Below, in pieces: positions 3,962-33,512 of a DNA stretch of 34,188 bases (position 1 is the stretch's first letter; every line of letters starts with the position of its first letter). The notes under the pieces were generated by a model. That model saw nothing but the letters and a program-made list of their open reading frames with translations, did not search any database and was not told the DNA's origin. The stretch spans positions 1 to 34,188 of the forward strand of contig JACPQF010000157.1 of assembly GCA_016190625.1 (NCBI GenBank), in the 5' to 3' direction. The translations under genes were made by a program, and so were the position numbers. The DNA comes from Chloroflexota bacterium. Lineage in GTDB: Bacteria; Chloroflexota; Dehalococcoidia; JACPQF01.

Positions 3962-3992
3962 TCAGCCCTGACGATCAATCGTTAGGCTAAAA

Positions 3993-6269: not shown

Positions 6270-6298
6270 TTGACAGACCGGTGGCGATGTGATAGAAA
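6270..6298 (+). promoter_or_regulatory. Probable promoter of the PNPOx-like gene
   Basis: TTGACA, 17 bases, TAGAAA. The -35 box is perfect and the -10 is weak. It lies about 50 bases before the ATG. Confidence 0.45.
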
Positions 6299-6349
6299 AT
6301 GAACGTAGGGTGTTCATGGCCCGTCCAGATAACTGTTAAGGAGGAAACG

Positions 6350-6748
6350 ATGGCGAAGCTCACGGCGGAAATCAAGGACTTCCTCAAGGGCAAAATGGCT
6401 TACATTGCTACTATCAGCCCCGAGGGCCTGCCCAACATCGGTCCCAAGGGCAGTTTCGCAGTATTTGACGACGAGCATATCGGCTGGAACGAATCCACAG
6501 GAAAGCAGACCTGGGCAAACCTCCAGAAGAATCCCAACGTGGCTGTGGCGGTGGTGGACAGGGAAACCCGCATCGGGTACCGTTTCACCGGCAAGGCGCA
6601 GTTGATCACCGACGGCCCTCTCTACGACAGCAGGGCCGCGGACTACTTAAAGCGGGGAAGCAAGGCTCCCCTTGCCGTGGTCTGTATCGCCGTCGACGGA
6701 GTCTACGACGTCGGCGCTGGCACCAGCCGGGGGAAGAAGCTGGCATAG
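6350..6748 (+). CDS. Pyridoxamine 5'-phosphate oxidase-fold flavoprotein
   Basis: 132 aa. The split-barrel pattern is clear: FLKGKMAYIATISPEGLPNI, then FAVFDDEHIGWNES, NPNVAVAVVDRETRIGYRFTGKA, and VCIAVDGVYDVGAG. Small members of this family bind FMN or F420 and reduce diverse small molecules; the substrate cannot be read from sequence. The start is the ATG at 6350 because AAGGAGG precedes it by seven bases; an upstream ATG at 6299 lacks this. It stands alone between divergent and repeat-rich flanks. Confidence 0.85.
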   Translation: MAKLTAEIKDFLKGKMAYIATISPEGLPNIGPKGSFAVFDDEHIGWNESTGKQTWANLQKNPNVAVAVVDRETRIGYRFTGKAQLITDGPLYDSRAADYLKRGSKAPLAVVCIAVDGVYDVGAGTSRGKKLA

Positions 6749-7078
6749 GTAGCAGTCAGCGGTCAGCTATCAGCCGGGGAGCGGCAGAAAGTGCGCAGGG
6801 GAGAATGGCCGTTCGCCCCTGTGGTGATCGTGGTCGCCATCTCTGCTTGTCTCGCATTGTTCCGCACCCTTGAGAGCGTTCGGCAGCAACCGCTGCGTAC
6901 TAATACTCGTAGGGGCGAACGGCCGTTCGCCCCTACGGTGTCGTGAGGCAACCTGCGTTTCTCGCGAATCGTCCCGCCCCATCTGCGATTGGGCTCGCTT
7001 CTTGCAATCGGTCGAGGTGAAGAAGCGGTTGATGGGGTCCCGTGGCTTGCGATCACCTGTCCACTCTTTCCCCGATAC
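6749..7078. other. Repeat-bearing intergenic stretch upstream of glyA
   Basis: No gene is recognised. It holds a half copy of the GTAGGGGCG palindrome family (GGCCGTTCGCCCCTG near 6808) and a perfect full copy at 6909-6936. GTCAGCGGTCAGC-type strings follow the upstream gene. Confidence 0.6.
6909..6936. repeat. Perfect 28-bp GTAGGGGCGAACGG palindrome
   Basis: GTAGGGGCGAACGG is followed directly by its reverse complement, with no loop. An identical copy occurs at 28749-28776 in the RiPP cluster. Confidence 0.9.
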
Positions 7079-7107
7079 TTGCTTGACTAGCAGAAAAACA
7101 TTATACT
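7079..7107 (+). promoter_or_regulatory. glyA promoter
   Basis: TTGCTT, 17 bases, TATACT. The -10 box touches the first in-frame ATG (7108), so transcription should begin after that codon. This supports the ATG at 7135 as the true start. Confidence 0.7.
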
Positions 7108-7134
7108 ATGGCGAGAATCTTCTGGGGAGAGTCT

Positions 7135-8394
7135 ATGGATATTCTGCCACATTCGGATCCGGAGATAGCCTCCGCGATCGAGGAAGAAGAGCTGAGGCAG
7201 CGCAGCAAGATAGAGCTGATCGCCTCCGAGAACTACGCCAGCGCAGCGGTGCTGGAGGCCCAGGGGTCGGTGCTCACCAACAAGTACGCCGAAGGGTATC
7301 CAAGGCACCGCTATTATAACGGCTGCGAGTACATCGACAAGGTCGAGGATTTGGCCATCCAGCGGGCCAAGGTCCTGTTCAAGGCCAGCCACGCCAACGT
7401 TCAGCCTCACAGCGGATCGCAGGCCAATATGGCCGCTTATTTCACCTTATTGGAGCCCGGCGATGTTGTGCTAGCCATGAACCTCGAGCACGGGGGCCAC
7501 CTCACACACGGCCGGTCGGTTAACTTTTCCGGCAGGCTCTACCGCTTCGTGCCGTACGGCGTACACAGGGACACGGAGCGTCTGGATTACGACGAAATAG
7601 AGAGACTGGCCGTGGCGCATAAACCCAAGCTCATTGTCGCTGGCGCCACAGCCTACTCGAGAATTATTGATTTTCCTCGCTTTCGCGAGATCGCCAATAG
7701 GGTGGGAGCTCTTCTCATGGCGGACATGGCCCACATTGCCGGCCTCGTCGCCACCGGCCTCCATCCGAGCCCCGCGCCTTACGCTCACGTGGTAACCTCC
7801 ACCACCCACAAGACCTTGCGCGGTCCCCGCGGCGGATTCATTCTCTGTGGCGCCGATTTGGCCCAGCAGCTCGACAAGGGCGTCTTCCCCGGAATACAGG
7901 GCGGGCCTCTCATGCACGTCATCGCGGCCAAGGCCGTGGCTTTTGGCGAGGCTCTCCATCCCAGCTTTGTGGCATACCAGCACATGGTGGTGGAGAATGC
8001 CAGAGTTCTGGCCGAGGAACTGCAGCGGTTGGGGCTGCGCATCGTTTCCGGCGGTACCGACAACCATCTCATGCTGGTGGACCTAACGGCGATCGGCGTG
8101 ACGGGCGGCAAGGCGGCTCAGGTCCTCGACGAGGTAGGCATCACCGCCAACAAGAACGCCATTCCCTTTGACCCTCGACCGCCAACCGTCACCAGTGGCA
8201 TCCGGCTGGGTGTTCCGGCGGTCACCAGTCGGGGATTCGGCACGGAGGAGATGCGACTCATCGCCTCTCTCATAGTGCGAACGCTGCGCAGCTTCGGCGA
8301 CGACAGAGAACTAGATCGGATCCGTGAGGAGGTCGCCAAACTGAGCGGCCAGTTCCCCGTGCCGGGCTTGACGCGGCTGATAGCCCATACCTAG
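7135..8394 (+). CDS. glyA: Serine hydroxymethyltransferase
   Basis: 419 aa, a normal length for the family. This PLP enzyme interconverts serine and glycine with tetrahydrofolate and supplies one-carbon units in the cytoplasm. Motifs seen: [10 protein letters not shown] (substrate loop), [39 protein letters not shown], and [14 protein letters not shown] with the PLP-binding lysine. The ATG at 7135 was chosen because GGGGAG lies just before it and the promoter -10 overlaps the earlier ATG at 7108. It appears monocistronic. Confidence 0.97.
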
Positions 8395-8428
8395 CGGTCA
8401 GCGGTCGGTGGGGGAGCCAAAGAACGAG

Positions 8429-8458
8429 TTGACTTTAGGGGCAGCGGTGATGTATCAT
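8429..8458 (+). promoter_or_regulatory. Promoter of the zinc-ribbon gene, long leader
   Basis: TTGACT, 18 bases, TATCAT. It leaves a 5' leader of about 110 bases before the ATG at 8577, long enough for post-transcriptional control. No known element is recognised in that leader. Confidence 0.6.
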
Positions 8459-8576
8459 ACGACAAGGTGTATATCTTCTTGTTGTGCCTCCTAAGTCTAG
8501 CCTCTAACGGCGGGGGATTGCTCCAGAGGGCCACAATCAGAGAGTAAGACCAACAACCTTGAAAGGGGGACTCCCA

Positions 8577-8894
8577 ATGGCGTACGCCGACAAGACCCTC
8601 ACCTGCCGTGACTGTGGCGCCCAATTCCAGTTCACCGCTCGCGAACAGGAGTTCTACGCATCCAAGGGCTTCGAGAACGAGCCTAGCCGATGCCCTGACT
8701 GTCGAGCGGCAAAACAGCGGAGACCTGCCTCCGGCAATCGGCGTACCGCTCGCTCTGATGGCGACACCCGAACCATGTATCCGGCCGTTTGTGCGGCGTG
8801 TGGCGCTCAGACTCAGGTGCCCTTTGTTCCCAAAGAGGATCGCCCGGTCTTCTGCAGCAACTGCTTCAGCCAGCGTCGAAAGTCCCGGTATTAG
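8577..8894 (+). CDS. Double zinc-ribbon domain protein
   Basis: 105 aa with two CxxC pairs in each half. The N-terminal part (YADKTLTCRDCGAQFQFTA, EQEFYASKGFENEPSRCPDC) is the 'probable zinc-ribbon' domain. The C-terminal part (AVCAACGAQTQVPFVP, RPVFCSNCF) is the second ribbon. Families with this layout are small, abundant, nucleic-acid- or translation-associated proteins of undefined role. The start is the ATG at 8577, behind GAAAGGGGG. It lies next to rpsU, which fits a link to translation, but that is inference. Confidence 0.9.
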   Translation: MAYADKTLTCRDCGAQFQFTAREQEFYASKGFENEPSRCPDCRAAKQRRPASGNRRTARSDGDTRTMYPAVCAACGAQTQVPFVPKEDRPVFCSNCFSQRRKSRY

Positions 8895-9007
8895 TCCTGC
8901 TCCAAGTTAACGTTGGGGCGAATCCTTCCACAGAAGGAATCGCCCTGCACGAGGCGCAGTTATTTTGGCCCGCGGGAATATCCAGAAGGGAAGGATAAGT
9001 ATTTATT

Positions 9008-9190
9008 GTGCAAGTAACCCTGCGAGATGGGGAGACCCAGGAAAGCCTCTTGGCGAGGTTCACCAAGGTAATTCAGCGAGAAGGCATCCTCAAAGAGGCC
9101 CGGTCGAGGCAGCATTTCATATCCAATCGTGACAAGGCCAGGGCTGCCGAGCGCAAGTCTGCCAAGCGCAGACGTCGGGGCATCCGCTAG
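9008..9190 (+). CDS. rpsU: Small ribosomal subunit protein bS21
   Basis: 60 aa with a GTG start (VQVTLRDGETQESLLARF). The basic second half (FISNRDKARAAERKSAKRRRRGIR) is typical of bS21, which binds the 30S platform and helps mRNA start selection. AAGGATAAG upstream can serve as ribosome-binding site. A strong terminator follows within 15 bases of the stop. Confidence 0.92.
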   Translation: MQVTLRDGETQESLLARFTKVIQREGILKEARSRQHFISNRDKARAAERKSAKRRRRGIR

Positions 9191-9204
9191 ACACGGACCA
9201 GAAA

Positions 9205-9246
9205 CCGTAGGGGCGTCCTTCGGCTGAAGGACGCCCCTACGGTTTT
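9205..9246 (+). terminator. Intrinsic terminator of rpsU built from a dispersed palindrome
   Basis: The stem starts CCGTAGGGGCGTCCTTC; a four-base loop and the perfect complement follow, then six T residues. It gives 17 paired bases. The same GTAGGGGCGTCCTTC palindrome recurs at 16036-16069 without the T tract. Confidence 0.92.
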
Positions 9247-9270
9247 TTGCCTCTTGTGCATGTCCAGCCG

Positions 9271-10593
9271 TCAACGGACAGCAGCGTAGAAATCTATTCT
9301 GCCCGCCCCCAATTTCCCCCGATATTGGGTGTAGTTCAACTGATCGATGTTTACGGCAGCGTGGGTGAGACGCGAGACGACGGCGTCGCCCGTCCAGTCC
9401 GGATGGAGTCCCTTCACCAGCGCCACTCCTCCAGACACGAAGGCCGCCGACATCGAAGTCCCGCTCCACCAGGCGTATCCCCCGTTCCAGTAGGTGCTGT
9501 AGATCCCCGAGCCGGGAGCGGAGAGGTCGGTCTCTTTCCCCCAGTTGGAATAGGAAGCTTTCAGATCGTCGCTGTCGGTGGCGGCCACGGCCACGGCGTT
9601 GGCGTAGCGAGCCGGATATAGCACGCTGCCGCTCCTCTCCTTTGGCGAGCGATTCCCACCCGATGCCACAAGGGTGAGGTTTTTGGCATGGGCATAATCT
9701 ACCCCATCCTCGACTACGTGCGAGCTGCGATTCATGCCCAGGCTCACGTTGACGACATCCGCTCCGTGGTCGACGGCGTAGCGAATACCCGCGGCGAGGT
9801 TGAACACCGTGCCCGTGCCATCGGAGTCGAGTATCCTCACTGGCATGAGCGCGGCTTCGGGCGCCACTAGAGCGACGATTCCGGCGAGAAAGGTCCCGTG
9901 GCCGGTTGCTTCGTCGACGTAACCGTCTCCGTCGTCGTCAACGCCATTGGGCAGGTCGGAAGGATCCCCATCGCCGTCGACGAAATCCCACCGCGCCGCC
10001 GTTAGCCTGCCCGCCAGCGCGGGGTGCGCCAGATCTACGCCGGTATCGAGGATGGCAACAGTCGTCCCCCGGCCAGTAGCCAGGGTCTGCGCCTGAGCCA
10101 GCCGCGTTCGAGCCACGGCCCATTGTCCTTTGTAGAGGGCTGGCGCATCATCTCCCGAGGTGGCTTGAGCGTACTGGCCGTCGAATGCCAGCGAGAACTG
10201 CTGCGCCTCCGGGCTCTTGATAGTCGCGTTCTCTTCCGCCTGGACAACAGACCTGTCGCCTTTAAGCGTCTCGACCATCTGTGCGGCGGACACGTCGGTC
10301 GAGAGCAGATAGATCGAAGTGCCGGAGATACGTCTGACAGTCGAGGTACCGAAGCGGGCGTTGAGTTTCTCTATGGATTCTCCGTCGCGTAGCTTGACGA
10401 CCACTTCGCTGTCGGCAGGCATCCCGGCCGGCTTGTCGGCTAAAGCCGGTGAAATGAAGAAAAATACCAGTAAGCACGCGAGAACCAGGGACGAGATGAA
10501 GGGTACGTCAGGGAGCCGCCTCGTGCCTCTTCGTACCTCTTGCTTCTTTGGCAAGATAGCCTTAACCCTCAAACCTCTTAACCTCCTTCTCAT
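9271..10593 (-). CDS. Secreted subtilisin-like serine protease (S8)
   Basis: 440 aa from the ATG at 10593. A basic N-terminus is followed by the export helix SSLVLACLLVFFFISPALA, an inhibitor-I9-like propeptide (EVVVKLRDGESIEKLNARFG) and the S8 catalytic domain with Asp in ILDTGVDLAHP (about 181), His in GHGTFLAG (about 233) and Ser in GTSMSAAF (about 381). DGDGDPSDLPNGVDDDGDGY is a calcium-site-like stretch. A longer frame reaches 10680 but crosses a partial GCCCCTACG repeat and overlaps the CHAT gene, so the later start is preferred. It is the last gene of the sigma/anti-sigma/CHAT unit, 50 bases after the CHAT stop. Convergent with rpsU. Confidence 0.93.
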   Translation of the reverse strand: MRRRLRGLRVKAILPKKQEVRRGTRRLPDVPFISSLVLACLLVFFFISPALADKPAGMPADSEVVVKLRDGESIEKLNARFGTSTVRRISGTSIYLLSTDVSAAQMVETLKGDRSVVQAEENATIKSPEAQQFSLAFDGQYAQATSGDDAPALYKGQWAVARTRLAQAQTLATGRGTTVAILDTGVDLAHPALAGRLTAARWDFVDGDGDPSDLPNGVDDDGDGYVDEATGHGTFLAGIVALVAPEAALMPVRILDSDGTGTVFNLAAGIRYAVDHGADVVNVSLGMNRSSHVVEDGVDYAHAKNLTLVASGGNRSPKERSGSVLYPARYANAVAVAATDSDDLKASYSNWGKETDLSAPGSGIYSTYWNGGYAWWSGTSMSAAFVSGGVALVKGLHPDWTGDAVVSRLTHAAVNIDQLNYTQYRGKLGAGRIDFYAAVR

Positions 10594-10643
10594 TATCGTC
10601 TTTCCGCCGAAGGATTTGCCCCTACGTATCCTGAAGTGATCTG

Positions 10644-13490
10644 TCAATTGCTCCTCCCCACCAAGACAAATGGCGCCCAATAATAGGGATGGCCGTATTC
10701 AGCTTCCATCTGAATTTGAGCCGATCGCAATGCCGATCGCTTGCTTGCACCATGCACCAGGTTTTGGTAAAAGGTTCTCATCAGATTGGCCGTCGAGAGA
10801 TCGTTAACCGCCCAAAGACTCGCCAGCAGCGAGGCAGCTCCGGCGTAGAGGAAACCGCGGGAAATGCCGATGATCTCGTCGCTTCCCACGATCTTGCTCA
10901 CGCCGGTTTGGCAGGAGCTCAGGGTGACCAGCGATGCATTGAGACGAAGGTTGTAGATGTCATAGACGTTGAGCCAGCCATCAGCCAGCCGAAGCCTCGA
11001 GAACATGGGGTTGCCCGACGAAAACAGGGCGTGGGAGGCGATGTGGACAATGTCCCAGGAGCCCGAATTTGCCCGCAGTGCACTCATCGTGGCGGCCTTG
11101 CCTGTCACACAGCGGTGTTTGGGGAGGAGGTGGCGAATGGACTCGATTTCCTCCTCCACAGCAGGCGCCCTCTCATCGGATACGCCCACGAGCAGACAAC
11201 TCCGGAAATCGGCGGGTTTCCTGTCGACGACGAACCTAAGAACACCTGCGCTGGGCGAATAGGAGACGTCGTGATGCTGGATGACGTACTGGTCCCCATC
11301 CCGGAAGGCGTGAAACGGCAGGGCGTGAAGCCCGCCGTGAGGCACGAATACCAGCTTCATTCCCTCTATCCGGCCCTCGATGGGCCGCAGCAACTCGTCG
11401 TAGAGGTGGGACAGACAATCGTTGGTGGCCGCCAGCAACTGGTCGAAATGGTCGGCGATGTACCGGTCGCCATAGTTGAATTTGCCGAACTGGAAGCTTA
11501 ACCGTCGCGCCAGGGCAGCGACGACCTCCGGGTTGGCTACTCCCCGCTGCACGTGCAGGCTGCTCCTCGTCACGACGAAGCAGAGAATCTCTTGGCCGGC
11601 ATCATAGTATTCGACGAGGGCCTCGTCGCCGTCCAGCGCCGATTGGACCTCCTCCAAACAAGGGAGACTCCTGCCGTATAAGCCAGAGTATTCCGGGCTC
11701 GCCAACTGCAGCCGGTCCATGCATTGAGCCAGTTGTCTCTCCCGAACTCGCACTTCGGCCGCAATGTGCTCCAAGCGCTGGGAGCTGAGACGCTGGCCCT
11801 TGCCGTCGCCTTCGTCCAGCCGGTTATAGAACCAGTTTAGCTCCTCCCGCAGCGCCTGTATCCTCCTCACCAGGCCCTGGTCCGCCTCCCCTCTCACTCT
11901 GACCTCAAGCTCGCCCCGGAGAAGGTCGACCAGCGCCCTCGACTTGGCCCTCTCGACGTACTGGAAAGCCCTCCTCACACCGTCGTCGCCCTTGTCGAGC
12001 AACAGGAGAACGAGGTCCCGGTATGCCTGCAGCTTGTCGCCGAGGAAGAGGTTACGAGCGCCTTCGGACCGGAGCTCCTCCCGCATGCCTTCCAGCACGC
12101 CGATGGCCTCCTCTAAACACTGGACTGCCTGATCGGCATTGACGGTGCTCAGGAGGCGCCCTTTGGCGTGGAGAACCTGGTGGGTGAGCCAGGGCAGGCC
12201 AAACCTTGTGGCAAGACCGAGAGCGTAGTCATAAGATAGGACCGCTCGGTGCGTCTCGCCTCGAAGGGCGTGGACTTGCCCCTCGACAAGGGAGGTAACG
12301 CCAATCTTGCCGGCAATGCCATGCTTGCGAAAGACTTCCGCCGACTGTTTTGCCAGCTTGAGGGCCTGATCTAAGGCCGTGGAATTTGGCCGCGATTTAA
12401 CGAGCAAGACAGCCCGGCTGAGGTCAGCGGAGGCGGCCCTCACCTCGTTTTCCTCGAGATGGCATAGCGCCCCGCTCTCCTCCAAAAGCTGCAGCGCCTC
12501 TTGGCTCTGGCCCAGCCTTGCCCGGCCCAGAGCCATTACGGCCAGGGCCTGAGCCTTCTCCGCCCGCATGCCGAGTCGCTCGAAGACGGCCAGAGCGCTC
12601 TCACAGAGGGCTAGGCACTCCGACGGCATGTTCAGGTCCAGATGCACTTGCGCCAGGTCGAGGTCCACCGTGGCGGCGTTCTTGACAATACCGAGGTCCA
12701 GGAAGGTCGTCGCCGCGGCCGTGTAGAGCTCCAGCGCCCGGTTGAGCCTTCCCATTTGGTGGAATAGAAAGCCCATGTTGGCATCTATCATGGCTACCAC
12801 CGCCTTCGCTCCGCTTTGATCGAAGACAGCCCGCGCCCGCCTGTAGGCCCCGAGGGCGGTGGAGAAGCGATCCACGAGGGTGAGAACGTTCGCTCTGTTG
12901 ACGTCCACCTGGGCAACCAATACTTTCTCTCCCAGTTGGAAAAACGTCCGGCGCGCCCGGCCGTACCTTTGCAGAGCAGCTCGATAGTGATCGGTGCGGT
13001 GATAGAGGTTGCCCATGTTGGCGTCGACCTTGGCAGCCAGGAGAACCTCACCCTGCTCGAGGAAAAGTTGCCTGGCCTTTCTGGCGGCGGCGGATGCCTC
13101 GCCATACTTGCTCAGGTACATCAGGGCATCGATCTTCCCGATGAGGGTGCTGGCGACGTCCATTGGATCATCAGCGCGGGCAAGCACGCTCTCGGCCTGG
13201 CCATAGTGGGAAAGGGCGTCATCGTACTCCCCCAGCTCGCGCAGCACATTGGCTTTAGCCCACAGACTGAGGCCGGAGCAGACCAGATCAGCCGTCGAGC
13301 GGCAGGCCATGAGCATGATATCCGCGATCTTCAGGGCGGCTTGAGGGTCCGCTCGTTTCAAGACATCGATTTCCCCTTTGAGCAGCCGCATTGATGTCTG
13401 ATCGATAGCGCCAAGCTTGCTCTCGAGAAGGCCAATGGCGTCGCCATCGCCACGAGCTTCCAGCAAGCCTGCGATGAGTTCTTGCTCCAT
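10644..13490 (-). CDS. TPR-CHAT protease (caspase-like)
   Basis: 948 aa. Residues 1 to about 480 are consecutive tetratricopeptide repeats (for example ANVLRELGEYDDALSHYGQA and ANMGNLYHRTDHYRAALQRY). A helical connector containing VERAKSRALVDLLRGELE follows, then the C-terminal CHAT domain with the His of VHIASHALF (about 817) and the Cys of LSSCQTGVS (about 861). Both catalytic residues are present, so it should be an active cysteine peptidase. CHAT proteins act in bacterial signalling and cell-death or immunity modules, cutting specific partners. The immediate upstream genes encode a zinc-finger anti-sigma-like protein and an ECF sigma factor, which suggests a partner. No signal peptide; cytoplasmic. 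Confidence 0.93.
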   Translation of the reverse strand: MEQELIAGLLEARGDGDAIGLLESKLGAIDQTSMRLLKGEIDVLKRADPQAALKIADIMLMACRSTADLVCSGLSLWAKANVLRELGEYDDALSHYGQAESVLARADDPMDVASTLIGKIDALMYLSKYGEASAAARKARQLFLEQGEVLLAAKVDANMGNLYHRTDHYRAALQRYGRARRTFFQLGEKVLVAQVDVNRANVLTLVDRFSTALGAYRRARAVFDQSGAKAVVAMIDANMGFLFHQMGRLNRALELYTAAATTFLDLGIVKNAATVDLDLAQVHLDLNMPSECLALCESALAVFERLGMRAEKAQALAVMALGRARLGQSQEALQLLEESGALCHLEENEVRAASADLSRAVLLVKSRPNSTALDQALKLAKQSAEVFRKHGIAGKIGVTSLVEGQVHALRGETHRAVLSYDYALGLATRFGLPWLTHQVLHAKGRLLSTVNADQAVQCLEEAIGVLEGMREELRSEGARNLFLGDKLQAYRDLVLLLLDKGDDGVRRAFQYVERAKSRALVDLLRGELEVRVRGEADQGLVRRIQALREELNWFYNRLDEGDGKGQRLSSQRLEHIAAEVRVRERQLAQCMDRLQLASPEYSGLYGRSLPCLEEVQSALDGDEALVEYYDAGQEILCFVVTRSSLHVQRGVANPEVVAALARRLSFQFGKFNYGDRYIADHFDQLLAATNDCLSHLYDELLRPIEGRIEGMKLVFVPHGGLHALPFHAFRDGDQYVIQHHDVSYSPSAGVLRFVVDRKPADFRSCLLVGVSDERAPAVEEEIESIRHLLPKHRCVTGKAATMSALRANSGSWDIVHIASHALFSSGNPMFSRLRLADGWLNVYDIYNLRLNASLVTLSSCQTGVSKIVGSDEIIGISRGFLYAGAASLLASLWAVNDLSTANLMRTFYQNLVHGASKRSALRSAQIQMEAEYGHPYYWAPFVLVGRSN

Positions 13491-24504: not shown

Positions 24505-24806
24505 GTTTCCACCCAATGTCCACGGTTACCAACCCAGCAAGAAACATCTGCTCTGCCGCTCGGATTGTACGGTATTTCCGAGGGGGAGTCAACTCGGTTG
24601 CAACATGGCCTGGCCCTTGGCTACTGGCCGTTGACTACTTTACATCGTTCTCCAAATTAGCTATACTCCACCCATGCAAACGGACCGACGAGGCGCAGAT
24701 CGGGCCTTGTGTGGCGGGGGTACGGCAAAGCCCTCGACCAATAGAACGGCATGCCGGTTGAGTGGCGTCAGTGGGGCGAACGGCAGAACGCGAAGGAAAC
24801 CAGGCG
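24505..24806. other. Intergenic stretch upstream of the RiPP cluster
   Basis: No gene is recognised; the small open frames here lack ribosome-binding sites and domains. It contains the probable cluster promoter at 24639-24667. Confidence 0.5.
24639..24667 (+). promoter_or_regulatory. Probable promoter of the RiPP cluster
   Basis: TTTACA, 17 bases, TATACT, about 140 bases before the PqqD-like start. Confidence 0.6.
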
Positions 24807-25118
24807 ATGAGATCGAATAGGTCTTCCGGGGTCGGCCTGCTGTCCCGCATAGCCAGGGGCAAGCGACAGGTTTCCGCCGATCTGGGGAAGGAAGTTGTCC
24901 TCCTTGGCCTCGACTCAGAGGAGTACTACGGACTGGAAGGCGTGGGGGCGCGGATCTGGGAGGCCATCGCCGAACCGCGCACGGTGGAGGAGATCCTGGC
25001 TATCGTTCTAGACGAGTACGACGTGGACCCCGGTCGGTGCGAGCGGGATCTGCTGGCGTTGGTGCAGGAGCTCACGGCTACGGGGCTCGTACAGGTCACG
25101 GATGGGGCGGACGCGTAG
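24807..25118 (+). CDS. PqqD-like RiPP recognition element (lasso B1-type)
   Basis: 103 aa from the ATG at 24807 with AAGGAA upstream. The winged-helix RRE pattern is clear: QVSADLGKEVVLLGLDSEEY, YGLEGVGARIWEAIAEPRTV, EEILAIVLDEYDV, then CERDLLALVQELTATGLVQV. Such proteins bind the leader peptide of a RiPP precursor and bring it to the processing enzymes. A lasso-type precursor with a matching leader is encoded 3.7 kb downstream. In lasso systems the RRE (B1) is normally followed by, or fused to, the B2 protease; no B2 is present here. Confidence 0.92.
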   Translation: MRSNRSSGVGLLSRIARGKRQVSADLGKEVVLLGLDSEEYYGLEGVGARIWEAIAEPRTVEEILAIVLDEYDVDPGRCERDLLALVQELTATGLVQVTDGADA

Positions 25119-25210
25119 GTTTTGGTCCTGCGCCCCCAGCTCCGGCGAGCGGGGGGTGCTGACTAGCGGCGCCCTGTGGCTGGCCGGCTCTGTCCCGCCT
25201 CTGGCCTTTC

Positions 25211-26287
25211 TTGGCGACGAAGAGGAACCCGAAGGGCGGTGAGAAGAAAGCCGTGGTCCAAGGCTGTTCGGCGTCAGGGCGCGTCTTGGGAGACGACGGG
25301 CGAGGGGATCACCTACGGGAGTACACCCTCTACGGACTCCGCGTTCGCTCGGAGGTCCCGCTTCCGGCATCGATCTGCCAGCGCTTCTCGCCGTGGGATG
25401 ACCACGACATAGAGCTCCGGTGGGGCGAGCGAACCACGCTACCTGACCGGCCACCGTCCGGAAGGGTCGTGGCAGAGCTGGTGCCCGGCCACGGACGGGG
25501 CTACGTTCTTGTGGATGCCGGGACCGGCTACGCGCTTCGCTTCCACGGGACGTGTCAGTTCTGGATTGCTCGCGATCTGCGTTCGGTTTGGGTTCACCTC
25601 CCACCGGAGGTAGCGCCTGATTTGGCCGCCTTGCTGTTTGTCGGAAATGTGCTTGCTTGTATTCTTACCTTGGCCGGCGAGTACGTCCTGCACGCCAGCG
25701 CCGTCGAGGTGGGAAACGTGGCGCTGGCCTTTGTCGGCGGCTCGGGGATGGGGAAGTCCACCCTCGCGGCCCTGCTTTGCGCCAGCGGCGCCCGCCTCAT
25801 CGCCGACGACCTGCTCCGGCTGCAACCTCAAGGGCGGCGCTTTCTCTGCTATCCCGGCGCAGGGGAGATCCGGCTGCGCCAGCAGGCCGCCGAACTCGCC
25901 CGCGGCCTTCCGGCTCTGGCATCGGAAACGACGGCGGATGGGCGCGTGGGCGTGAAGCTGGACCATCCGGGTTCCCGGCCGGCGTTGGGCGCGATCGTGA
26001 TCCCTCGCCCGTCACGGCAATGTCACGCGGTACGGCTCGAGCGGCTGACCTGTTCCAGTGCGCTCCTTTTGTTGATGACTCACCGCAGAGTGCAGGGGCT
26101 GCGGCAGGTTGAGCATGTTCAAGCCCAGTTCCAGCAGTTTGCCCATGTCACCGCCAGCGTTCCGGTCTTCGAGGCGGAGATTCCTTGGGGACCGCCGTTC
26201 TCTCCCGCCATAGCGGAGGAGTTGTTGCAGGGTGTCGGTTTGGTGGTGCACCAAACGGAAACCGACGCGATCAGGAGTCGAGGCTGA
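25211..26287 (+). CDS. HPr-kinase-like tail kinase 1 (lasso K-type)
   Basis: 358 aa as drawn. The beginning (YTLYGLRVRSEVPLP) and the pairing of LHASAVEV with the Walker A loop FVGGSGMGKSTLAALL (about 178-190), then LIADDLLRL, are the signature of HprK-related kinases in RiPP clusters. Known relatives phosphorylate the C-terminal Ser of lasso peptides (paeninodin type). The core here has Thr12 and Ser14. The start is uncertain: the TTG at 25211 has no good ribosome-binding site, and a GTG at 25253 is also possible. Its TGA overlaps the ATG of the next ORF by one base, so translation is coupled. Confidence 0.85.
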   Translation: MATKRNPKGGEKKAVVQGCSASGRVLGDDGRGDHLREYTLYGLRVRSEVPLPASICQRFSPWDDHDIELRWGERTTLPDRPPSGRVVAELVPGHGRGYVLVDAGTGYALRFHGTCQFWIARDLRSVWVHLPPEVAPDLAALLFVGNVLACILTLAGEYVLHASAVEVGNVALAFVGGSGMGKSTLAALLCASGARLIADDLLRLQPQGRRFLCYPGAGEIRLRQQAAELARGLPALASETTADGRVGVKLDHPGSRPALGAIVIPRPSRQCHAVRLERLTCSSALLLLMTHRRVQGLRQVEHVQAQFQQFAHVTASVPVFEAEIPWGPPFSPAIAEELLQGVGLVVHQTETDAIRSRG

Positions 26288-26832
26288 TGTTCGACAAGCT
26301 GCGCGGGTACGGCGTCAACGGATATTCAACGGATAAACGGATAGGCGACCATTCCCCAGCCGTTTATCCTAGATTCTGCATTAACTCGCGAGTCGCCGAG
26401 GCTGTAGGGGCGAAGCATTGGCGCAAGGCCTTCGACCTATCCTTCACGCTCCTTCGCCAATGCTTCGCCCGCCCCGCTCTCGCCCTGCGACCAAGCTTGT
26501 CCGATAGGACCAGGCCCCTCGCGCCAATGCACCGGGCGGGCGAAGTCCTTCTCGGAAGGACAAAGTTTGTTGGGAGCTCCGAAGCAACTGGTTCCGTCCT
26601 TCCGGGAAGGGCTTCGCCCCTACGACTTTGGTCAGCCGCACTGCTGTCCCAAGCTAAGTGGCATGGCTCTTTCGAGTTAGTGCGAAATCTAGGTTATCCG
26701 TTGCCCCATCCGGTGACGCCTTACCCGGTGCGCCGTCGCCCGCTCTTCTTGTTGAAGGCCATTGGCGGGAGCGTGGCGGCACAAATCACGCGTCGCCAGG
26801 CGCTGGGGCGGACGGCGGAGGTGGGCCTATGA
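26287..26832 (+). CDS. Coupled ORF invaded by repeats, function unknown
   Basis: 181 aa. The ATG overlaps the upstream kinase stop (TGATG) and the TGA overlaps the cyclase ATG (ATGA), so this is a genuine coupled gene position. The middle (about codons 12-113) is repeat DNA: a GTCAACGGATATTCAACGG element and the large GTAGGGGCGAAG inverted repeat at 26404-26623, read through without a stop. Only the first codons (MFDKLRGYG) and the last part (LGYPLPHPVTPYPVRRRPLF, LLKAIGGSVAAQITRRQALG, RTAEVGL), with strongly GC-biased third positions, look like original coding sequence. It sits where a B2 leader peptidase could stand, but no Cys-His-Asp transglutaminase motif is visible. Confidence 0.5.
   Translation: MFDKLRGYGVNGYSTDKRIGDHSPAVYPRFCINSRVAEAVGAKHWRKAFDLSFTLLRQCFARPALALRPSLSDRTRPLAPMHRAGEVLLGRTKFVGSSEATGSVLPGRASPLRLWSAALLSQAKWHGSFELVRNLGYPLPHPVTPYPVRRRPLFLLKAIGGSVAAQITRRQALGRTAEVGL
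26404..26623. repeat. Composite GTAGGGGCGAAG inverted repeat (MITE-like)
   Basis: GTAGGGGCGAAG at the left end is answered by CTTCGCCCCTAC at the right end, 220 bases overall. Inside are nested pairs such as GGCGAAGCATTGGCG with CGCCAATGCTTCGCC and GTCCTTCTCGGAAGGAC. It is the largest member of the dispersed palindrome family in this window and lies in frame in a coupled ORF. Confidence 0.85.
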
Positions 26833-28649
26833 CCGTACCGCCGCTGGCGAACCTGTTTGCCATCCACGACCCCGACCCGGCGATGCTGGACGCCACCAGG
26901 CGAGACCTGCAGGGCAGCGAGGAGTTTGCGGAGGTGTGGCGTCCCGCCCCCGGCTGGGTGGCTGCCGCCGCGCCGTTGCCCCATGGAACACCCGACGATA
27001 ATCGCGTTCGTCAGCATCGACTCGCCTTTGCCGAGGGGCGGGATGTGGTGCTAGATCGGTGCGGCGAAGACCCGACCCTGCGTATAGGTGAGATCGCGGA
27101 GCTTGCCGACTTCAACCCTGGCCGCCTGTCTTCGCTGCCCGGCGACTTTGGCTTCATCCGCTTTCGGGCGGATGGGTGCGCCACGGTGGTGCGCTCTTGC
27201 GGCGGGCTGGTGCCGTTCTACATGGGGCGATTTGGGGACCGTTTCGCCATCTCCACCCGGCTGGGGGACTTCGTCCGCTATCTTCCCGACGAGCCGCGGC
27301 TGGACGCGCTGGTGAACGCGACCTGGGCCGTCGGTTGGGGCCTTTTCCCCGACGGGAGAACGCCGGTGGCCGGCGTGTCCCTGCTGGAGCGGGGGTGGTT
27401 TGCCCTGATAGAGGACGGGGAGCAGAAGGCGACCGGATCCTACTGGAACCCCCGGCCAAGGCGGATCCCCTATCCCACGCCGGCGTTGGCCCGCGAGCAC
27501 GCCCAGCGTCTGCGGAGCCTGCTCGTCGAAAAGCTGTCGCGGGACCTGGACCCCGACGACGGGAATCTCCTCACCTTGAGTGGCGGGGTGGATTCCTCCT
27601 CTCTGGCCGCCCTGGCCGCCGGCGTGGTGGGCCGCAAGGTATGGACCTGGTCCTTGCTGCCCCCCAAAGATAGGGAGGATCTGATCCAGCATGAGATGTC
27701 CTACATAGAGCCGCTGGCCGAGCGGTACGGGTTCGCCCGGCGTTGGTCCGTTTACTACCGCCAGGGGATGGGGTTGGACCTGTGGCGCGCCTTTCCCCCG
27801 CCCGCCTTTCCCGTCCTCCATCCGGCGCTTTGCAGTCTGCCGGCGGTGGTCCGTGAGGCGCCGGTGCGCGTGCTGTTTGGCGGCGAGTTTGCCGACGAGG
27901 TGTGTGGCTCGATCTTCACTTTGCCGGATTGGGCGGAGCACCTATCGGCGTCTAGGATGCTGCCAGACCCCGGGCTGTGGCTGAGACATCCGCGAAGGCT
28001 GGAGTGGTGGGCGACACATCGCCTGGCGGCGCGGCGGGGACAAGAAGCGTTGCCCGTTCTCAGGGATCTCCTCCAGATGGATCTGGCGACAAGAAAGCCT
28101 CTGGTCTTCTTTCACCCCACGGTGCAGGAGGAGTATCTGAACTGGTGGGAGCAGAAGAGAAAGGAGCTAAGGGCGGATCCAGGTCCCTGGCGGCACTTGT
28201 CGCTACGGGCGAGTACGACGGATGCTTTTGTCCCCATGAACTGGGAGGCGTGCAGCGCCCTGGGGATAAGGCGCTCCTTGCCTTTCTTCAATCGGGAGGT
28301 GCTGGAGCTCGCCTTCGCCTGCCACCCGGCAGAGCTCTACGGCCCCGGCACCAAGAAGCTACTCCGGACGGCGGTCTCTGGCGATGTCCCGCCGCGGAAC
28401 CTTTACCGGGCGGACAAGGGCGGGTGGGGCGCTTTCCTAACTAGATCAAGGGAGTCTGTACAGGAGCCGCTGCCGCAGGAGCCGCTGCCAGTCGAGCTGG
28501 AGGCTGTTCTGGCTCCTCAGGTTCTCTTGCGGACGCTAGAATCGGTTGGCTACTGGCAGTTTGGCTGCCTTACCCGCCTTATCTTGTTCGTCGAGTCCGT
28601 GCGGTCCCGGCGGTTTGGGCGGGGGACAGGAAAACCCTTGAGGGATTGA
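26829..28649 (+). CDS. Asparagine-synthetase-like macrolactam cyclase (lasso C-type)
   Basis: 606 aa from the ATG at 26829. The N-terminal third is a class-II glutaminase-like fold (LSSLPGDFGFIRFRADG), but no Cys follows the initiator Met, so ammonia is not made. The C-terminal part is an ATP-pyrophosphatase with the PP loop LSGGVDSSSLAALAAG (about 250-265), LFGGEFADEVCG, and later RSLPFFNREVLELAFACHP. Lasso cyclases use this fold to adenylate an Asp/Glu side chain and close a macrolactam with residue 1 of the core. GCGGAGG lies upstream. It directly precedes the precursor gene. Among Asn-synthase-like proteins the context makes the cyclase role likely. Confidence 0.88.
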   Translation: MTVPPLANLFAIHDPDPAMLDATRRDLQGSEEFAEVWRPAPGWVAAAAPLPHGTPDDNRVRQHRLAFAEGRDVVLDRCGEDPTLRIGEIAELADFNPGRLSSLPGDFGFIRFRADGCATVVRSCGGLVPFYMGRFGDRFAISTRLGDFVRYLPDEPRLDALVNATWAVGWGLFPDGRTPVAGVSLLERGWFALIEDGEQKATGSYWNPRPRRIPYPTPALAREHAQRLRSLLVEKLSRDLDPDDGNLLTLSGGVDSSSLAALAAGVVGRKVWTWSLLPPKDREDLIQHEMSYIEPLAERYGFARRWSVYYRQGMGLDLWRAFPPPAFPVLHPALCSLPAVVREAPVRVLFGGEFADEVCGSIFTLPDWAEHLSASRMLPDPGLWLRHPRRLEWWATHRLAARRGQEALPVLRDLLQMDLATRKPLVFFHPTVQEEYLNWWEQKRKELRADPGPWRHLSLRASTTDAFVPMNWEACSALGIRRSLPFFNREVLELAFACHPAELYGPGTKKLLRTAVSGDVPPRNLYRADKGGWGAFLTRSRESVQEPLPQEPLPVELEAVLAPQVLLRTLESVGYWQFGCLTRLILFVESVRSRRFGRGTGKPLRD

Positions 28650-28828: not shown

Positions 28829-29002
28829 ATGGAGAAGGAAGAGCGGAAGTCCACGGCTGGCGAGAGACACCAGGGGGGAGTGAGGGGCCATGAGAGAAAA
28901 CCCTACGCAACCCCAAAGTTGTCCAAGCTAGGGAATGTAAAGGAATGGACAAAGGGAAGTGCTTATGTGGCGGAGCCTGACGCAGGTACCATCAGTGGCT
29001 GA
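28829..29002 (+). CDS. Lasso-peptide-like RiPP precursor (57 aa)
   Basis: The ATG at 28829 follows AGGAGG (12 bases) and AGAGGA. The C-terminal half carries a textbook lasso leader motif, YATPKLSKLGNVKEWT (Y-x-x-P-x-L-x-x-L-G-x-V, then Thr at position -2). Next come K and the predicted core GSAYVAEPDAGTISG of 15 residues. Gly1 can form a macrolactam with Glu7 or Asp9. Tyr4, Thr12 and Ser14 are the possible decoration sites. The leader is longer and more charged at its N-terminus than usual (MEKEERKSTAGERHQGG). A GTG at codon 18 is an alternative start that would trim it to 40 aa. It is the natural partner of the RRE, cyclase and tailoring genes around it. Confidence 0.85.
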   Translation: MEKEERKSTAGERHQGGVRGHERKPYATPKLSKLGNVKEWTKGSAYVAEPDAGTISG

Positions 29003-29062: not shown

Positions 29063-30205
29063 ATGAACAACAGTTGGTCCAGTGATGTGGGTAAGCGTCT
29101 TTTCTTCGTCTACCGTTTCCCAGTTCGCCGCACCCTGGCGGCAATCGAACGGGGCGAGCTGCCAGAATCTTATGCAATGGGCTACCACAGATGCGGGCAG
29201 CACGGATTCGACGTGTCTTGCTTCGACGGCGAGGACTGGAGCAGATCGTGGCAGGCGCTGGCTCGCGCCATCAACCCGCCAATGGCGAAGCTGCTGGGCG
29301 TTCCCTTTGACGCTTCCGGCGCCTTGCATTCTCTGGGCGCCATGAGAGATAGGGACCTGGTGTTCACCATCTTGGATGGGGCGGGACTGCCCGTGATGTT
29401 GCTCCGGCTTTTCAGGCTGCTGCGAACGCCGGTCGTCCACCACACCGGGGAGCTGATCAAGCAGTTCCGGACGGCGCAAGGGAGTCTGCGCTGGCGGCTG
29501 GCCCGGCGGCTGCTGCGCCAGGCGACCTGCATCGTGTGCGATACCCGGACCCAAGAGGAGTGGCTGACCGGATTCATGCAGATTCCCTCCAGCAGCGTCT
29601 TGTGTCTGAACTCCATCGCCGGCGTCGACCTGGAGTTCCTCGACGGGAGGCCGGTCACCGACGAAGGGTTTGTCTTGTGCGTGGGCCGGGAGCGGCATCG
29701 GGACTTTGAACTGCTGTTTCAGGTAGCGCGGCAGCTTCCTCACGTGGATTTCGTCGCCGTGGGCACTGGCAAGCGATTCGCCGGCCTCGACGCTCCTGCC
29801 AACGTCCGGACCTTCGTCGACCTTCCCTACCTGAAGGTGGTGGATCTCTATCGGTCCGCCCGGCTGGTGGCGTTGCCCCTCAAGGACAACCGTTATTCCA
29901 TGGCGGGCCGCGTGGTCGGGGAGGCCATGGCTTTGGGCAAGGCGGTCGTGCTCTCGAACGTCGAGGCGCTACGCGGTATCGGTCCGCTGGAGTCGGGAGA
30001 ATGCTGCGTGCTCGTCGATCCCGGCGACCTCGGCCAGTTGACCGAGGCGGTTCGACGGCTTTACAATGACGCCGCCCTGCGGGAGACGTTGGGCCAAAAG
30101 GCGAAGGTTGTGGCGAGAGATTGCTTCAGTCTCGACCAGTACGTTGCGCGTATGTCGCAATTGTTCACAAGGATAGCCGGGGAACGCCAGATCACGCGTT
30201 GGTAG
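29063..30205 (+). CDS. GT4-like glycosyltransferase in the RiPP cluster
   Basis: 380 aa, GT-B type. The C-terminal Rossmann domain reads GFVLCVGRERHRDFELLFQV, VRTFVDLPYLKVVDLYRSAR and YSMAGRVVGEAMALGKAVVL followed by SNVEALRG, the nucleotide-sugar site of GT4-like enzymes. The N-terminal domain carries TPVVHHTGELIKQF. No signal peptide; cytoplasmic. It begins 60 bases after the precursor stop, so the peptide or a lipid/sugar carrier linked to it is the probable acceptor. Sugar and acceptor are unknown. The ribosome-binding site is weak (GGGATAA). Confidence 0.85.
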   Translation: MNNSWSSDVGKRLFFVYRFPVRRTLAAIERGELPESYAMGYHRCGQHGFDVSCFDGEDWSRSWQALARAINPPMAKLLGVPFDASGALHSLGAMRDRDLVFTILDGAGLPVMLLRLFRLLRTPVVHHTGELIKQFRTAQGSLRWRLARRLLRQATCIVCDTRTQEEWLTGFMQIPSSSVLCLNSIAGVDLEFLDGRPVTDEGFVLCVGRERHRDFELLFQVARQLPHVDFVAVGTGKRFAGLDAPANVRTFVDLPYLKVVDLYRSARLVALPLKDNRYSMAGRVVGEAMALGKAVVLSNVEALRGIGPLESGECCVLVDPGDLGQLTEAVRRLYNDAALRETLGQKAKVVARDCFSLDQYVARMSQLFTRIAGERQITRW

Positions 30206-30300: not shown

Positions 30301-32256
30301 ATGAAGGGCATTATCTGGCTTGCTTCATATCCCCGGTCTGGTAACACCTGGCTGCGTGTGGTCCTCAGCCACTTGACGGAGAAGGAGTGGGACCCGGAAG
30401 AGCTGAACTCCCTTCCGATTGGACATGCCGCCAGTCGTGAGCTTTTTGACGATATCGCTGGCGTCGAGGCTTCAGACCTGACCGAGGCGCAGATCGCCCT
30501 GTTGCGCCCCTGCGTCTACCAGCATCTTGTGACGGGTTTGGAGCAGCCCCTCTTCCTCAAGACTCACGACGCCTGGACCTTCAATGTGGCGGGCGAGCCG
30601 GTGCTTTCTGCCACCGCCACTGCCGGCGCCATTTACCTGGTACGGAATCCGCTGGATGTGGCCGTGAGTTTCGCTCACTTCTTGGGAACGGACACAGAAC
30701 ATGCTATCCGAGCCATGGAGGATCCCACTTACGTCTGGTACGAAGCAAAGACGCGCCTGACTGGGCAATTGCCCCAGAGGCTGCTGCCCTGGTCAGCCCA
30801 TGTCCGCAGTTGGCTCGATGAAGCCCATATCCCCATCTACGTAATGCGCTACGAGGATATGAAGGCGCGACCTCTTGAAACGTTTTCCGATGCGGTCCGC
30901 TTCTGCGGGCTGAAGCATACCGAGGCGGAAATTGAGATGGCGCTACAGGTAAGCCGCCTCAGTCGCCTCCAGGACTTGGAGAGGAGCAAAGGTTTTCGCG
31001 AGAAGCCTGTTACGGCTACTCGTTTCTTCAGAGAAGGGGCGGTCGGCGCCTGGCGAGAAGCGCTGAGCGAGTCGCAGGTGCAGCGCCTCATCGCAGTACA
31101 CGGCAAGGTGATGCGCCGCCTCGGCTACCTTGACGCCACGGACGACCCGATACGTCGAAAGAGGTCCTTGCGTATGACTTGGCACCAAAAGAACCGTGCG
31201 CCGGAGTGCCCTCACCCCAAACCTCTTCGCGCCGTGGCACCCAGCCCTTTAGCTGGGTCAGCACCCGGACGGGAGAGGGAACAGGACGACCCTCCCGTTT
31301 TCACTGATGGTGGCGCCTGCCAGGGCATGAATGACTACTCAGTCTATGGGATGCACATCGCATTGGCTATTGACCTCCCACTGCCCAGGGCGACTTCTTC
31401 GGTCAGCAGCCAACCCGACGTCGTCATTCGCTTTGGCGACGTGCCAGCCACGCTGGACGACCCGGCGATGAGCACGCCGATCTTGGCGGCCCGGCCAGAC
31501 GCGTTTCTCTTATCCTTGCCCGGCGTCGGTCGGTTTTTCGTCCGGGATGGGCGGGAGGTGTGCATTCAGCCCGAGAATGCCGTCCCGAAGGACGTCATCA
31601 GCTTGCACCTTCTGCACACAGTCCTGGCCGCCTTGCTTCACCAGCGCGGGCAACTACCACTGCACGCCTGTGGGGTGCTTGTCGACGGCGGCTGCGTCGC
31701 GTTTCTGGGCCACTCGAGCGCGGGGAAGTCCACCCTGGCGGCAAGACTACACGAGCGAGGTTACCCGGTCCTGTGTGACGACATCTGTGCAGTGGCTTGC
31801 ACCGAAGGCGTAGTCGCTGTCTACCCGGGCATCCAGCGGTTGCAGCTCTGGTCGGACGCTATTCAAGCCCTCGGCTTGAGCGCTGAGGTGGCGACGCCGA
31901 CTCATCCAGAGGCCGCACGCTACGGTTTCCCGGTGGATGCGCCCCTCTTGGACCAGCCATACCCACTGCGGCGGATCTACGTGCTGCGTGAAGCGAGGGT
32001 AGAGCCGGAAGGGTTCACCCGGTTACGACGCGTCAAGGCGTTCGAGACCCTGCTCACCCTTACCCACGGCCAGAGATACATGCCGACGCTGGTTGGGAAA
32101 GAGGCGCACTTCGGGAGGTATGCCGGGATCGCCCGCTCCGTCCCAGTCTTTGAATGGTGGCGCCCCTGGGGTCTGGACCGGCTGGGCGTCACGCTTGGTC
32201 ACTTGGAGAAGCATCTGAAGTCCGAGCCCAGTTCAAAAGAGGCCAAGCAAGCATAG
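30301..32256 (+). CDS. Sulfotransferase fused to a second HPr-kinase-like domain
   Basis: 651 aa from the ATG at 30301 (GAGAAGGAA just upstream). Residues 1 to about 285 are a PAPS-dependent sulfotransferase, with the 5'-phosphosulfate loop WLASYPRSGNTWLRVVLSHL, FLKTHDAW and the 3'-phosphate motif YLVRNPLDVAVSFAHFLG. Residues about 343-640 are an HprK-related kinase with LPLHACGVLVDGG, Walker A FLGHSSAGKSTLAARLHERG and VLCDDICAV. The joining linker (PKPLRAVAPSPLAGSAPGRE) is repeat-like DNA with CAGCCC...GGGCTG-type complementarity, so two genes may have been fused by a repeat; an ATG at 31327 would start the kinase alone. Likely acts on Ser, Thr or Tyr of the core peptide. Confidence 0.85.
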   Translation: MKGIIWLASYPRSGNTWLRVVLSHLTEKEWDPEELNSLPIGHAASRELFDDIAGVEASDLTEAQIALLRPCVYQHLVTGLEQPLFLKTHDAWTFNVAGEPVLSATATAGAIYLVRNPLDVAVSFAHFLGTDTEHAIRAMEDPTYVWYEAKTRLTGQLPQRLLPWSAHVRSWLDEAHIPIYVMRYEDMKARPLETFSDAVRFCGLKHTEAEIEMALQVSRLSRLQDLERSKGFREKPVTATRFFREGAVGAWREALSESQVQRLIAVHGKVMRRLGYLDATDDPIRRKRSLRMTWHQKNRAPECPHPKPLRAVAPSPLAGSAPGREREQDDPPVFTDGGACQGMNDYSVYGMHIALAIDLPLPRATSSVSSQPDVVIRFGDVPATLDDPAMSTPILAARPDAFLLSLPGVGRFFVRDGREVCIQPENAVPKDVISLHLLHTVLAALLHQRGQLPLHACGVLVDGGCVAFLGHSSAGKSTLAARLHERGYPVLCDDICAVACTEGVVAVYPGIQRLQLWSDAIQALGLSAEVATPTHPEAARYGFPVDAPLLDQPYPLRRIYVLREARVEPEGFTRLRRVKAFETLLTLTHGQRYMPTLVGKEAHFGRYAGIARSVPVFEWWRPWGLDRLGVTLGHLEKHLKSEPSSKEAKQA

Positions 32257-32267
32257 GAGACGAAGAT

Positions 32268-33512
32268 ATGGTCTCGATACGTACTCTGCCGCTTCTCCTA
32301 GCCTACTTGCGGGCAATTCTCACCGGGGAAGGGGCGCTGACGCCAACAGAGGCCCTGTCGGACGAGGTAGATTGGCCATCCCTTGTCGATTTCGCCGTGG
32401 CGCATCGGGTAGCGCCGCTGCTCTATCACAGCCTGGTTAGCGCCGGTCCGCCGCGTCTGCCGGAGCCGGCCCTGGACCGCCTGAGGCAACACGTTCGCAC
32501 CGCCGCACGCCACGGCCTTCTTCTGACCGGCGAGCTGCTGCGATTCCTCGGGCGCCTGGAAGCGCAGGGGATTCCCGCCGTCCCCTTCAAGGGTCCCGCC
32601 CTGGCCTCTCTGCTCTACGGCGACCCGGCGCTCCGCCAATACGATGACCTGGACATCCTGTTGCGGCGGGAAGACCTGCCCACCGCCGAAAGTCTCCTCG
32701 CCTCTTTGGGATACCAGCCGCAGGAGCCGTCGTCGTGCTTGACGCCACGTCGGGCCAGGGCCATCCGGCCGAGGAACCCCCATCTAACCTTCATTCTCGC
32801 CTGCGGGGATGCCAGGGTTGGCGTCGAGCTGCACTCGAACGTCGTGGCGGGTGAAGTTCCCTTTCACGCGAATCTGGACGACATCTGGGAGCGGTGTCGA
32901 ACGGTGAACTTCGCAGGCGAGGAGGTGGCGACCCTCTCGCCGGAAGATCTACTGCTTCTTCTCTGCGTACACGGCGCCAAGCATTACTGGGACCGTTTGC
33001 AGTGGCTGTGCGACGTGGCTCAATTGGTGAAGACCCAACCGGCTATGGACTGGAGTCGGGCCTGGCAGGAGGCGACGACCGCCGGCGCCCAGCGGCGGTT
33101 GTCTCTGGGCCTGCTCCTGGCAAACCAACTACTGGCGGCGCCGCTTCCCGACGAGGTCGAGCAGAAGATACGGCGCGACCGGCCGGCGGCAAGAGCGGCC
33201 ACGCAGATCATGAACCGTCTGCTGGCCGGAGTCCCGGCCGACTTCGAATCCTGGGAAATGATGGTCTTCCACTCGCGTTTGCTGGAGCGTCTGCCGGACC
33301 GCCTCTCGTTTTGCCTCTGGGCCTCGCTGACTCCCGGCCCTCCCGAATGGAGCCTCGTCTCACTTCCCGACCGTCTCTTTCCCCTGTACTACCTGCTCCG
33401 TCCCCTGCGGCTGGCGGCAAAGCATATCGGGAGGTCGGCGCGAGGGCGCCAGCGATCAACCGAGCATATCGGCCACGGCGAAGGAGCGGTCGGGGAAGGC
33501 GGCGGGAGCTAG
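32268..33512 (+). CDS. NTP_transf_5 nucleotidyltransferase (lasso tailoring type)
   Basis: 414 aa from the ATG at 32268, nine bases after AGGAG and 11 bases after the previous stop. Signature: PAVPFKGPALASLLYGDPAL followed by RQYDDLDILLRREDL, the G-x-x-L and D-x-D motif of the pol-beta fold; later VGVELHSNV and LLLLLCVHGAKHYWDRLQWL. Members occur next to HprK-like kinases in lasso clusters, where relatives modify the phosphorylated tail (pseudomycoidin type). Here it probably extends a phosphate set by one of the two kinases. Its last 57 bases overlap the convergent Uma2 gene, and the tail after about residue 395 (STEHIGHGEGAVGEGGGS) looks non-conserved. Confidence 0.87.
   Translation: MVSIRTLPLLLAYLRAILTGEGALTPTEALSDEVDWPSLVDFAVAHRVAPLLYHSLVSAGPPRLPEPALDRLRQHVRTAARHGLLLTGELLRFLGRLEAQGIPAVPFKGPALASLLYGDPALRQYDDLDILLRREDLPTAESLLASLGYQPQEPSSCLTPRRARAIRPRNPHLTFILACGDARVGVELHSNVVAGEVPFHANLDDIWERCRTVNFAGEEVATLSPEDLLLLLCVHGAKHYWDRLQWLCDVAQLVKTQPAMDWSRAWQEATTAGAQRRLSLGLLLANQLLAAPLPDEVEQKIRRDRPAARAATQIMNRLLAGVPADFESWEMMVFHSRLLERLPDRLSFCLWASLTPGPPEWSLVSLPDRLFPLYYLLRPLRLAAKHIGRSARGRQRSTEHIGHGEGAVGEGGGS

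Follow-up and report, generated by a model that had tools for sequence, protein, structure and literature searches.

Gene content of the locus

The window, i.e. the entire stretch of DNA under study, is the 34,188-bp contig C142; the assembly to which it belongs measures 3.18 Mb and has a completeness of 64.9%. It harbours a cluster of genes, all on the forward strand, in the order B1, K1, C, A, GT4, sulfotransferase/second kinase and NTP_transf_5 (Table 1).

Table 1 Coordinates of the cluster genes in the window and of related features on other contigs of the same genome
Feature	Position	Strand	Remarks
B1, PqqD-type leader-binding protein	24762..25118	+	PF05402 68.0 bits (cut-off 23.4)
Possible B2 remnant	25102..25242	+	46 codons, 17-nt overlap with B1
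K1, HPr-kinase-like protein with P-loop	25211..26287	+	all scores below cut-off
Genome-wide repeat between K1 and C	26290..26660	none	matches in own genome
C, Asn-synthetase-type macrolactam cyclase	26826..28649	+	PF00733 55.3 bits (cut-off 21)
A, putative lasso precursor	28829..29002	+	57 aa; leader 1-42, core 43-57 GSAYVAEPDAGTISG
GT4-type glycosyltransferase	29063..30205	+	PF13692 49.0, PF00534 45.1 bits
Sulfotransferase and second HPr-kinase-like domain (from about 31327)	30301..32256	+	PF00685 87.1 bits
NTP_transf_5 nucleotidyltransferase-like protein	32154..33512	+	PF14907 228.4 bits
Second RiPP-like locus, L067 (contig C85)	2433-10828		GT4 83% identical to that of the window
Precursor-like ORFs, L067 (contig C85)	11317, 9501, 6916, 5590, 3196	-	W..PT leader
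Third locus, L010 (contig C105)	3063-11204		two B1/B2 pairs on opposite strands
Precursor-like ORF, L010 (contig C105)	9182	+	W..PT leader
Precursor-like ORFs, L068 (contig C105)	16659, 16088, 15527	-	W..PT leader

The PqqD-type B1 protein typical of lasso clusters is present; it also scores 66.3 bits with NF033536 (lasso_PqqD_Bac; below the cut-off of 80) and resembles the solved lasso B1 proteins TbiB1 (5v1u, E 2.1e-11) and 9x90 (E 1.4e-13). K1 represents the HPr-type kinase known from paeninodin-type clusters, with weak but recognisable family scores (TIGR04352 33.5, TIGR00679 30.3 and PF07475 30.9 bits). The repeat behind it recurs in at least 44 places of the genome at E<=1e-5, with 40 of the 154 candidates scored, and separates K1 from C; in relatives of the cluster, kinase and cyclase genes adjoin or overlap. 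The cyclase frame is open from 26658, homology starting near 26826, and its alignment displays the motifs SGGVDSS and GTKKLLR. PF00733 identifies the Asn-synthetase-type cyclase expected of a lasso cluster; the lasso-specific NCBIfam models remain below cut-off, and sequence comparison with solved cyclase structures gave no match.

Kinase, sulfotransferase, glycosyltransferase and nucleotidyltransferase genes beside the precursor, as originally predicted, were recovered as family matches, with the kinases below cut-off. The second kinase-like domain (PF07475 17.5, TIGR04352 24.6 bits, likewise below cut-off) shares one stop-free frame with the sulfotransferase, which may represent either a fusion or two genes. 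The NTP_transf_5 protein is 33% identical over 375 aa to a protein encoded beside the precursor of L071, a related cluster described below. The genes recognised in the cluster do not include one for a transporter.

Putative precursor gene A

The ORF of A translates to MEKEERKSTAGERHQGGVRGHERKPYATPKLSKLGNVKEWTKGSAYVAEPDAGTISG, followed by a stop codon, with an AAGGAGG ribosome site 12 nt 5' of its ATG. It is located 179 bp 3' of the cyclase ORF and 60 bp 5' of the GT4 ORF. Its leader, YATPKLSKLGNVKEWTK, shows the published lasso-precursor pattern (PMC10368454): YxxPxL, with Tyr(-17), Pro(-14) and Leu(-12), occupies -17 to -12, and Thr lies at -2. ORF, leader including Thr(-2), and gene order thus agree with the original prediction of a 57-aa lasso-type precursor between cyclase and glycosyltransferase.

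The check with lasso-leader models that had been proposed turned out in part: lasso_leader_L3 (16.0 bits) and lasso_cyano (16.2 bits) both match A, but fall below their cut-offs of 19 and 33, respectively; Pfam profiles did not match the 57-aa protein. A is the sole lasso_leader_L3 match at E<=10 in its own, 64.9% complete, assembly. By itself this score proves little, since weak matches are common: at E<=0.5 they occur in 94 of 400 genomes sampled from the phylum (above cut-off in 9), and among 14 control genomes 7 have weak matches at E<=10 and 1 at E<=0.5. The full leader pattern has a single match in the whole window, the loose one three. Dinucleotide shuffling of the 413-bp gap holding A (n=20,000, either strand) yielded the full pattern 8 times and the looser one 265 times, counts that are indicative only, because the patterns were defined after the ORF had been seen. 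Stronger evidence for A is provided by the short ORFs with a like leader directly 3' of homologous cyclases in other genomes.

Related clusters in other phyla

A search of the genome collection with one cyclase protein as query, which therefore finds close relatives only, revealed three relatives in other phyla, namely L069 (Methylomirabilota; 67% identity over the best segment), L070 (Acidobacteria; 51%) and L071 (labelled Proteobacteria; 48%). No homologue was found in 99 other genomes of the class at E<=1e-20, nor, at E<=1e-25, in a sample of 399 other genomes of the phylum that partly overlaps this set. In the groups of the relatives, matches occurred in 3 of 396 genomes (G465 itself and two further relatives, G830, i.e. 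L081, with 43% and G472, i.e. L082, with 38% identity), 1 of 95 (G464 itself) and 1 of 384 (G466 itself), the sets of 396 and 384 being samples of these groups and that of 95 not. The spread of the relatives over phyla suggests that the cluster core was spread by horizontal transfer.

A kinase-like gene lies directly beside the cyclase gene in all five relatives. L069, L070, L071 and L082 also carry B1 and B2; around L081, the only B2-like match is a weak one some 4 kb upstream, and B1 gave no match. Kinase and cyclase frames are broken in L071, whereas the stop in the G830 match is no break, as it coincides with the C terminus of an open frame of 633 aa.

Short ORFs with a lasso-type leader follow the cyclase directly in 3/3 relatives with sufficient contig: L070 (leader YARPEFRELGDVEELTR, core GSGASTDAAPLVGSAV), L071 (leader YETPELSLFGTVEDLTQ, core GGTAGAVGDGTTST) and L081 (leader YEAPTIVVLGTFAELTQ, core QGQAPTDELFNDGSTV). 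This count omits L082, the contig of which ends inside the cyclase gene, and L069, which ends 128 bp past it; these 128 bp contain no leader-like ORF, and A itself starts only at 179 bp. The L070 ORF has GTG starts only, without a good ribosome site. The original prediction was to fall if related genomes lacked a short ORF between cyclase and glycosyltransferase; this check, run in part, did not refute it, for the short ORF recurs, though in none of the three (0/3) is a GT4 gene located directly behind it. In L082, a weak precursor match was noted at 6018-5914 (E 0.003).

Absence of a B2 leader peptidase from the window

The original prediction overlooked that the window is devoid of a B2 leader peptidase, a usual member of lasso clusters: a search with PF13471 returned none. 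Elsewhere in the genome, two B2 genes score above the PF13471 cut-off, both on contig C105 and each beside a PqqD gene.

Judged from sequence similarity, the short frame overlapping the end of B1 is likely, though not securely, a truncated B2. Over its first 27 codons it can be aligned with the N-terminal end of the L069 B2, and the aligned L069 Met likewise overlaps B1 by 17 nt. Of 32 aligned columns 41% are identical (E 5e-4 by tblastn, with a 401-nt stretch searched), and an equal score was reached in 55/5000 shuffles. Resemblance to other B2 proteins is at chance level (L071, 854/1000; L070, 324/1000; B2a, 200/1000; B2b, 435/1000 shuffles). An assembly error may also account for the truncation.

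Core peptide and ring size

The 15-residue core of A (GSAYVAEPDAGTISG) contains, as had been predicted, Gly1 together with Glu7 and Asp9 as candidate ring acids, which agrees with the Gly1 and the Asp or Glu at position 7-9 sought in lasso cores; usual lasso rings comprise 7-9 residues (PMC5067487, PMC10368454). In a MAFFT alignment of three precursors (window, L070 and L071; L081 was left out), window Asp9, L070 Asp7 (past a two-residue gap) and L071 Asp9 share one invariant column, and Glu7 is not conserved. The proposed comparison of cores therefore speaks, within these three sequences, for one of the two acids named and not for the other. L070 possesses Asp7 only and L071 Asp9 only; the L081 core has Asp7, Glu8 and Asp12 if its Thr is counted as -2. 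Capistruin and paeninodin likewise have PDA at core positions 8-10.

The invariant Asp9 column and the lack of conservation of Glu7 favour a Gly1-Asp9 over a Gly1-Glu7 ring. A is accordingly read as the precursor of a lasso peptide of class II type, free of cysteine, with a nine-residue Gly1-Asp9 ring, a reading to which a probability of roughly 0.55 is assigned; that A is a true lasso-type precursor, both ring sizes taken together, is considered likely.

The tail AGTISG contains no residue larger than Ile and hence no large plug. Larger lasso rings as a general rule need larger plugs to stay threaded than small rings do (PMC7549694), so that this tail is poorly suited to keeping a nine-residue ring threaded and would favour Glu7. 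A seven-residue ring had been regarded as new, but xanthomonins I-III already possess one (PMC4675943) and provide a precedent for closure at Glu7; for the window peptide, in which Asp9 is the better-supported acceptor, such a ring is less likely than one of nine residues. The literature consulted on lasso plugs and decoration yielded nothing specific.

Comparison with known lasso systems

Paeninodin and its relatives in Firmicutes share with the window the HPr-type kinase and the split B1/B2 type. Some paeninodin-type clusters also resemble it in carrying sulfotransferase and nucleotidyltransferase genes; no sulfated product is named in the part of that account drawn upon (PMC8498205). In contrast to paeninodin, which carries its phosphate on the C-terminal Ser and has a B1/B2 pair, the window lacks B2 and the core of A ends in ISG. 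Since this core terminates in Ser14-Gly15, without a C-terminal Ser, candidate phosphate positions are Ser14, Thr12 or Ser2.

Pseudomycoidin likewise combines a kinase with a nucleotidyltransferase, whereas the window adds GT4 and the sulfotransferase and its core lacks the C-terminal Ser. Synthesis of pseudomycoidin is reportedly possible without leader and leader peptidase. In the paeninodin and pseudomycoidin systems, an HPr-type kinase is described as adding phosphate and a nucleotidyltransferase as transferring hexose, the phosphorylated Ser of pseudomycoidin bearing one or two hexose units (PMC8498205, PMC9266682). The novelty originally ascribed to the decorations consequently does not extend to phosphate and hexose. 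Sulfation, glycosylation and nucleotidyl transfer on the window peptide are predictions from gene neighbours.

The Bsf system of Bradymonas also has YxxPxL at -17 to -12, and its kinase works without a C-terminal Ser, on Ser3, to which Ser2 of the window core is comparable (PMC10368454). It differs by Ile(-2), in place of Thr, and by an Asp8 ring.

Further RiPP-like loci

Apart from the window, nine precursor-like ORFs with a W..PT leader were detected in the same genome (Table 1). With the core cut set, by the authors' choice, two residues past T/S/A, their acids are Asp8 (6/9), Asp9 (2/9) and Glu8 (1/9), residue 1 is G, V, N, S, H, F, S, L and G, and eight end in Ser; two of the nine show a weak likeness, below cut-off, to the paeninodin family. 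Should these ORFs be lasso precursors, several of the first residues would be unusual, Asn1 being already known from metanodin (PMC12670498).

The locus on contig C85 also encodes an Asn-synthetase-type protein in which Arg replaces the Lys shared by the other eight cyclases of the alignment, a kinase-like protein, B1 and a sulfotransferase 43% identical to that of the window; its B2 match spans only residues 1-77 of 156. The C105 locus comprises in addition an NTP_transf_5-like protein and, as read from sequence, putative genes of the sulfate-activation type and a family 2 type glycosyltransferase; no cyclase was recognised near positions 3063-11204.

In other genomes of the phylum, 19 regions (L048-L066) surround leader matches; at E<=0.01, 11 of them have a PqqD-type match and 7 a cyclase match. 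In lasso-type precursors of other genomes, the Gly that follows Thr(-2) and one further residue is replaced by Asn in L056 (6933) and by Gln in L061 (9967) and L081 (7568).

Proposed biosynthesis and alternative explanations

By analogy with known B1 proteins, B1 would bind YxxPxL of the leader of A. One or both HPr-type kinases would add phosphate to a hydroxyl of the core, probably while the peptide is still unfolded. Cleavage by B2 would follow Lys(-1), the residue next to Thr(-2); as the window has no B2, the enzyme would most likely act in trans from the C105 locus, or its gene may reside in unassembled DNA. The cyclase would then activate Asp9 (alternatively Glu7) with ATP and couple this residue to the Gly1 amino group, so that a nine-residue ring would form around the tail AGTISG. 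Glycosyltransferase, sulfotransferase and nucleotidyltransferase, to go by their proximity, may decorate a hydroxyl or the phosphate.

The lasso reading is supported by the leader, the families of B1, kinase and cyclase, the gene core common to the relatives, the short ORFs with lasso-type leaders in L070, L071 and L081 and the B2 genes on C105. Against the nine-residue ring peptide stand leader and cyclase scores below the curated lasso cut-offs, the lack of a match to solved cyclases, the absence of a recognised B2 or transporter, the restriction of the alignment to three precursors, one with a two-residue gap, the GTG starts of L070 and the small tail. Closure of the same precursor at Glu7, giving a xanthomonin-like seven-residue ring with the tail PDAGTISG, is a possible but rather doubtful variant: Glu7 is in place, the only L070 acid is at position 7 and the tail suits the smaller plug of small rings (PMC7549694), but L070 Asp7 aligns with window Asp9 instead of the non-conserved Glu7, and L071 has its acid at 9 only. 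Missing B2, possible B2 remnant and repeat could together mark a decayed cluster, with B2 truncated, the repeat inserted between K1 and C and no lasso peptide made; open frames for kinase, cyclase, B1, precursor, glycosyltransferase and NTP_transf_5 and the B2 genes elsewhere in the genome make this unlikely.

That the cyclase forms an unthreaded macrolactam or another amide of a different RiPP would accord with its weak matches to lasso-specific models and with the short tail lacking a clear plug, yet leader and Thr(-2) fit the lasso pattern at each position and B1 resembles solved lasso B1 proteins, which leaves this explanation decidedly improbable. Least credible of all is a chance ORF, as its size of 57 aa and the sub-threshold leader score might suggest: the pattern is rare among shuffles, even if chosen post hoc, and like ORFs 3' of homologous cyclases in other genomes argue for rejection.

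Significance

The locus thus very probably specifies a lasso peptide of already known kind, with an ambiguous ring size, a tail with little to hold the knot and no B2 beside A. It places two kinase-like genes and genes for a sulfotransferase, a GT4 and a nucleotidyltransferase beside one lasso precursor. A more far-reaching reading, at present unlikely as a whole, would have one cyclase family close rings of seven (L070) and nine residues (L071 and window), with B2 borrowed in trans from a different RiPP locus in the genome and a decorated Thr or Ser serving as plug; in tails without a large residue, a sugar, phosphate or sulfate on Thr or Ser would hold the knot. Homologous cyclases facing Asp7 or Asp9 in different genomes would offer a handle on what sets ring size, and the combination of a cluster without B2 and B2 genes elsewhere in the same genome would provide a test of leader-peptidase sharing between RiPP loci.
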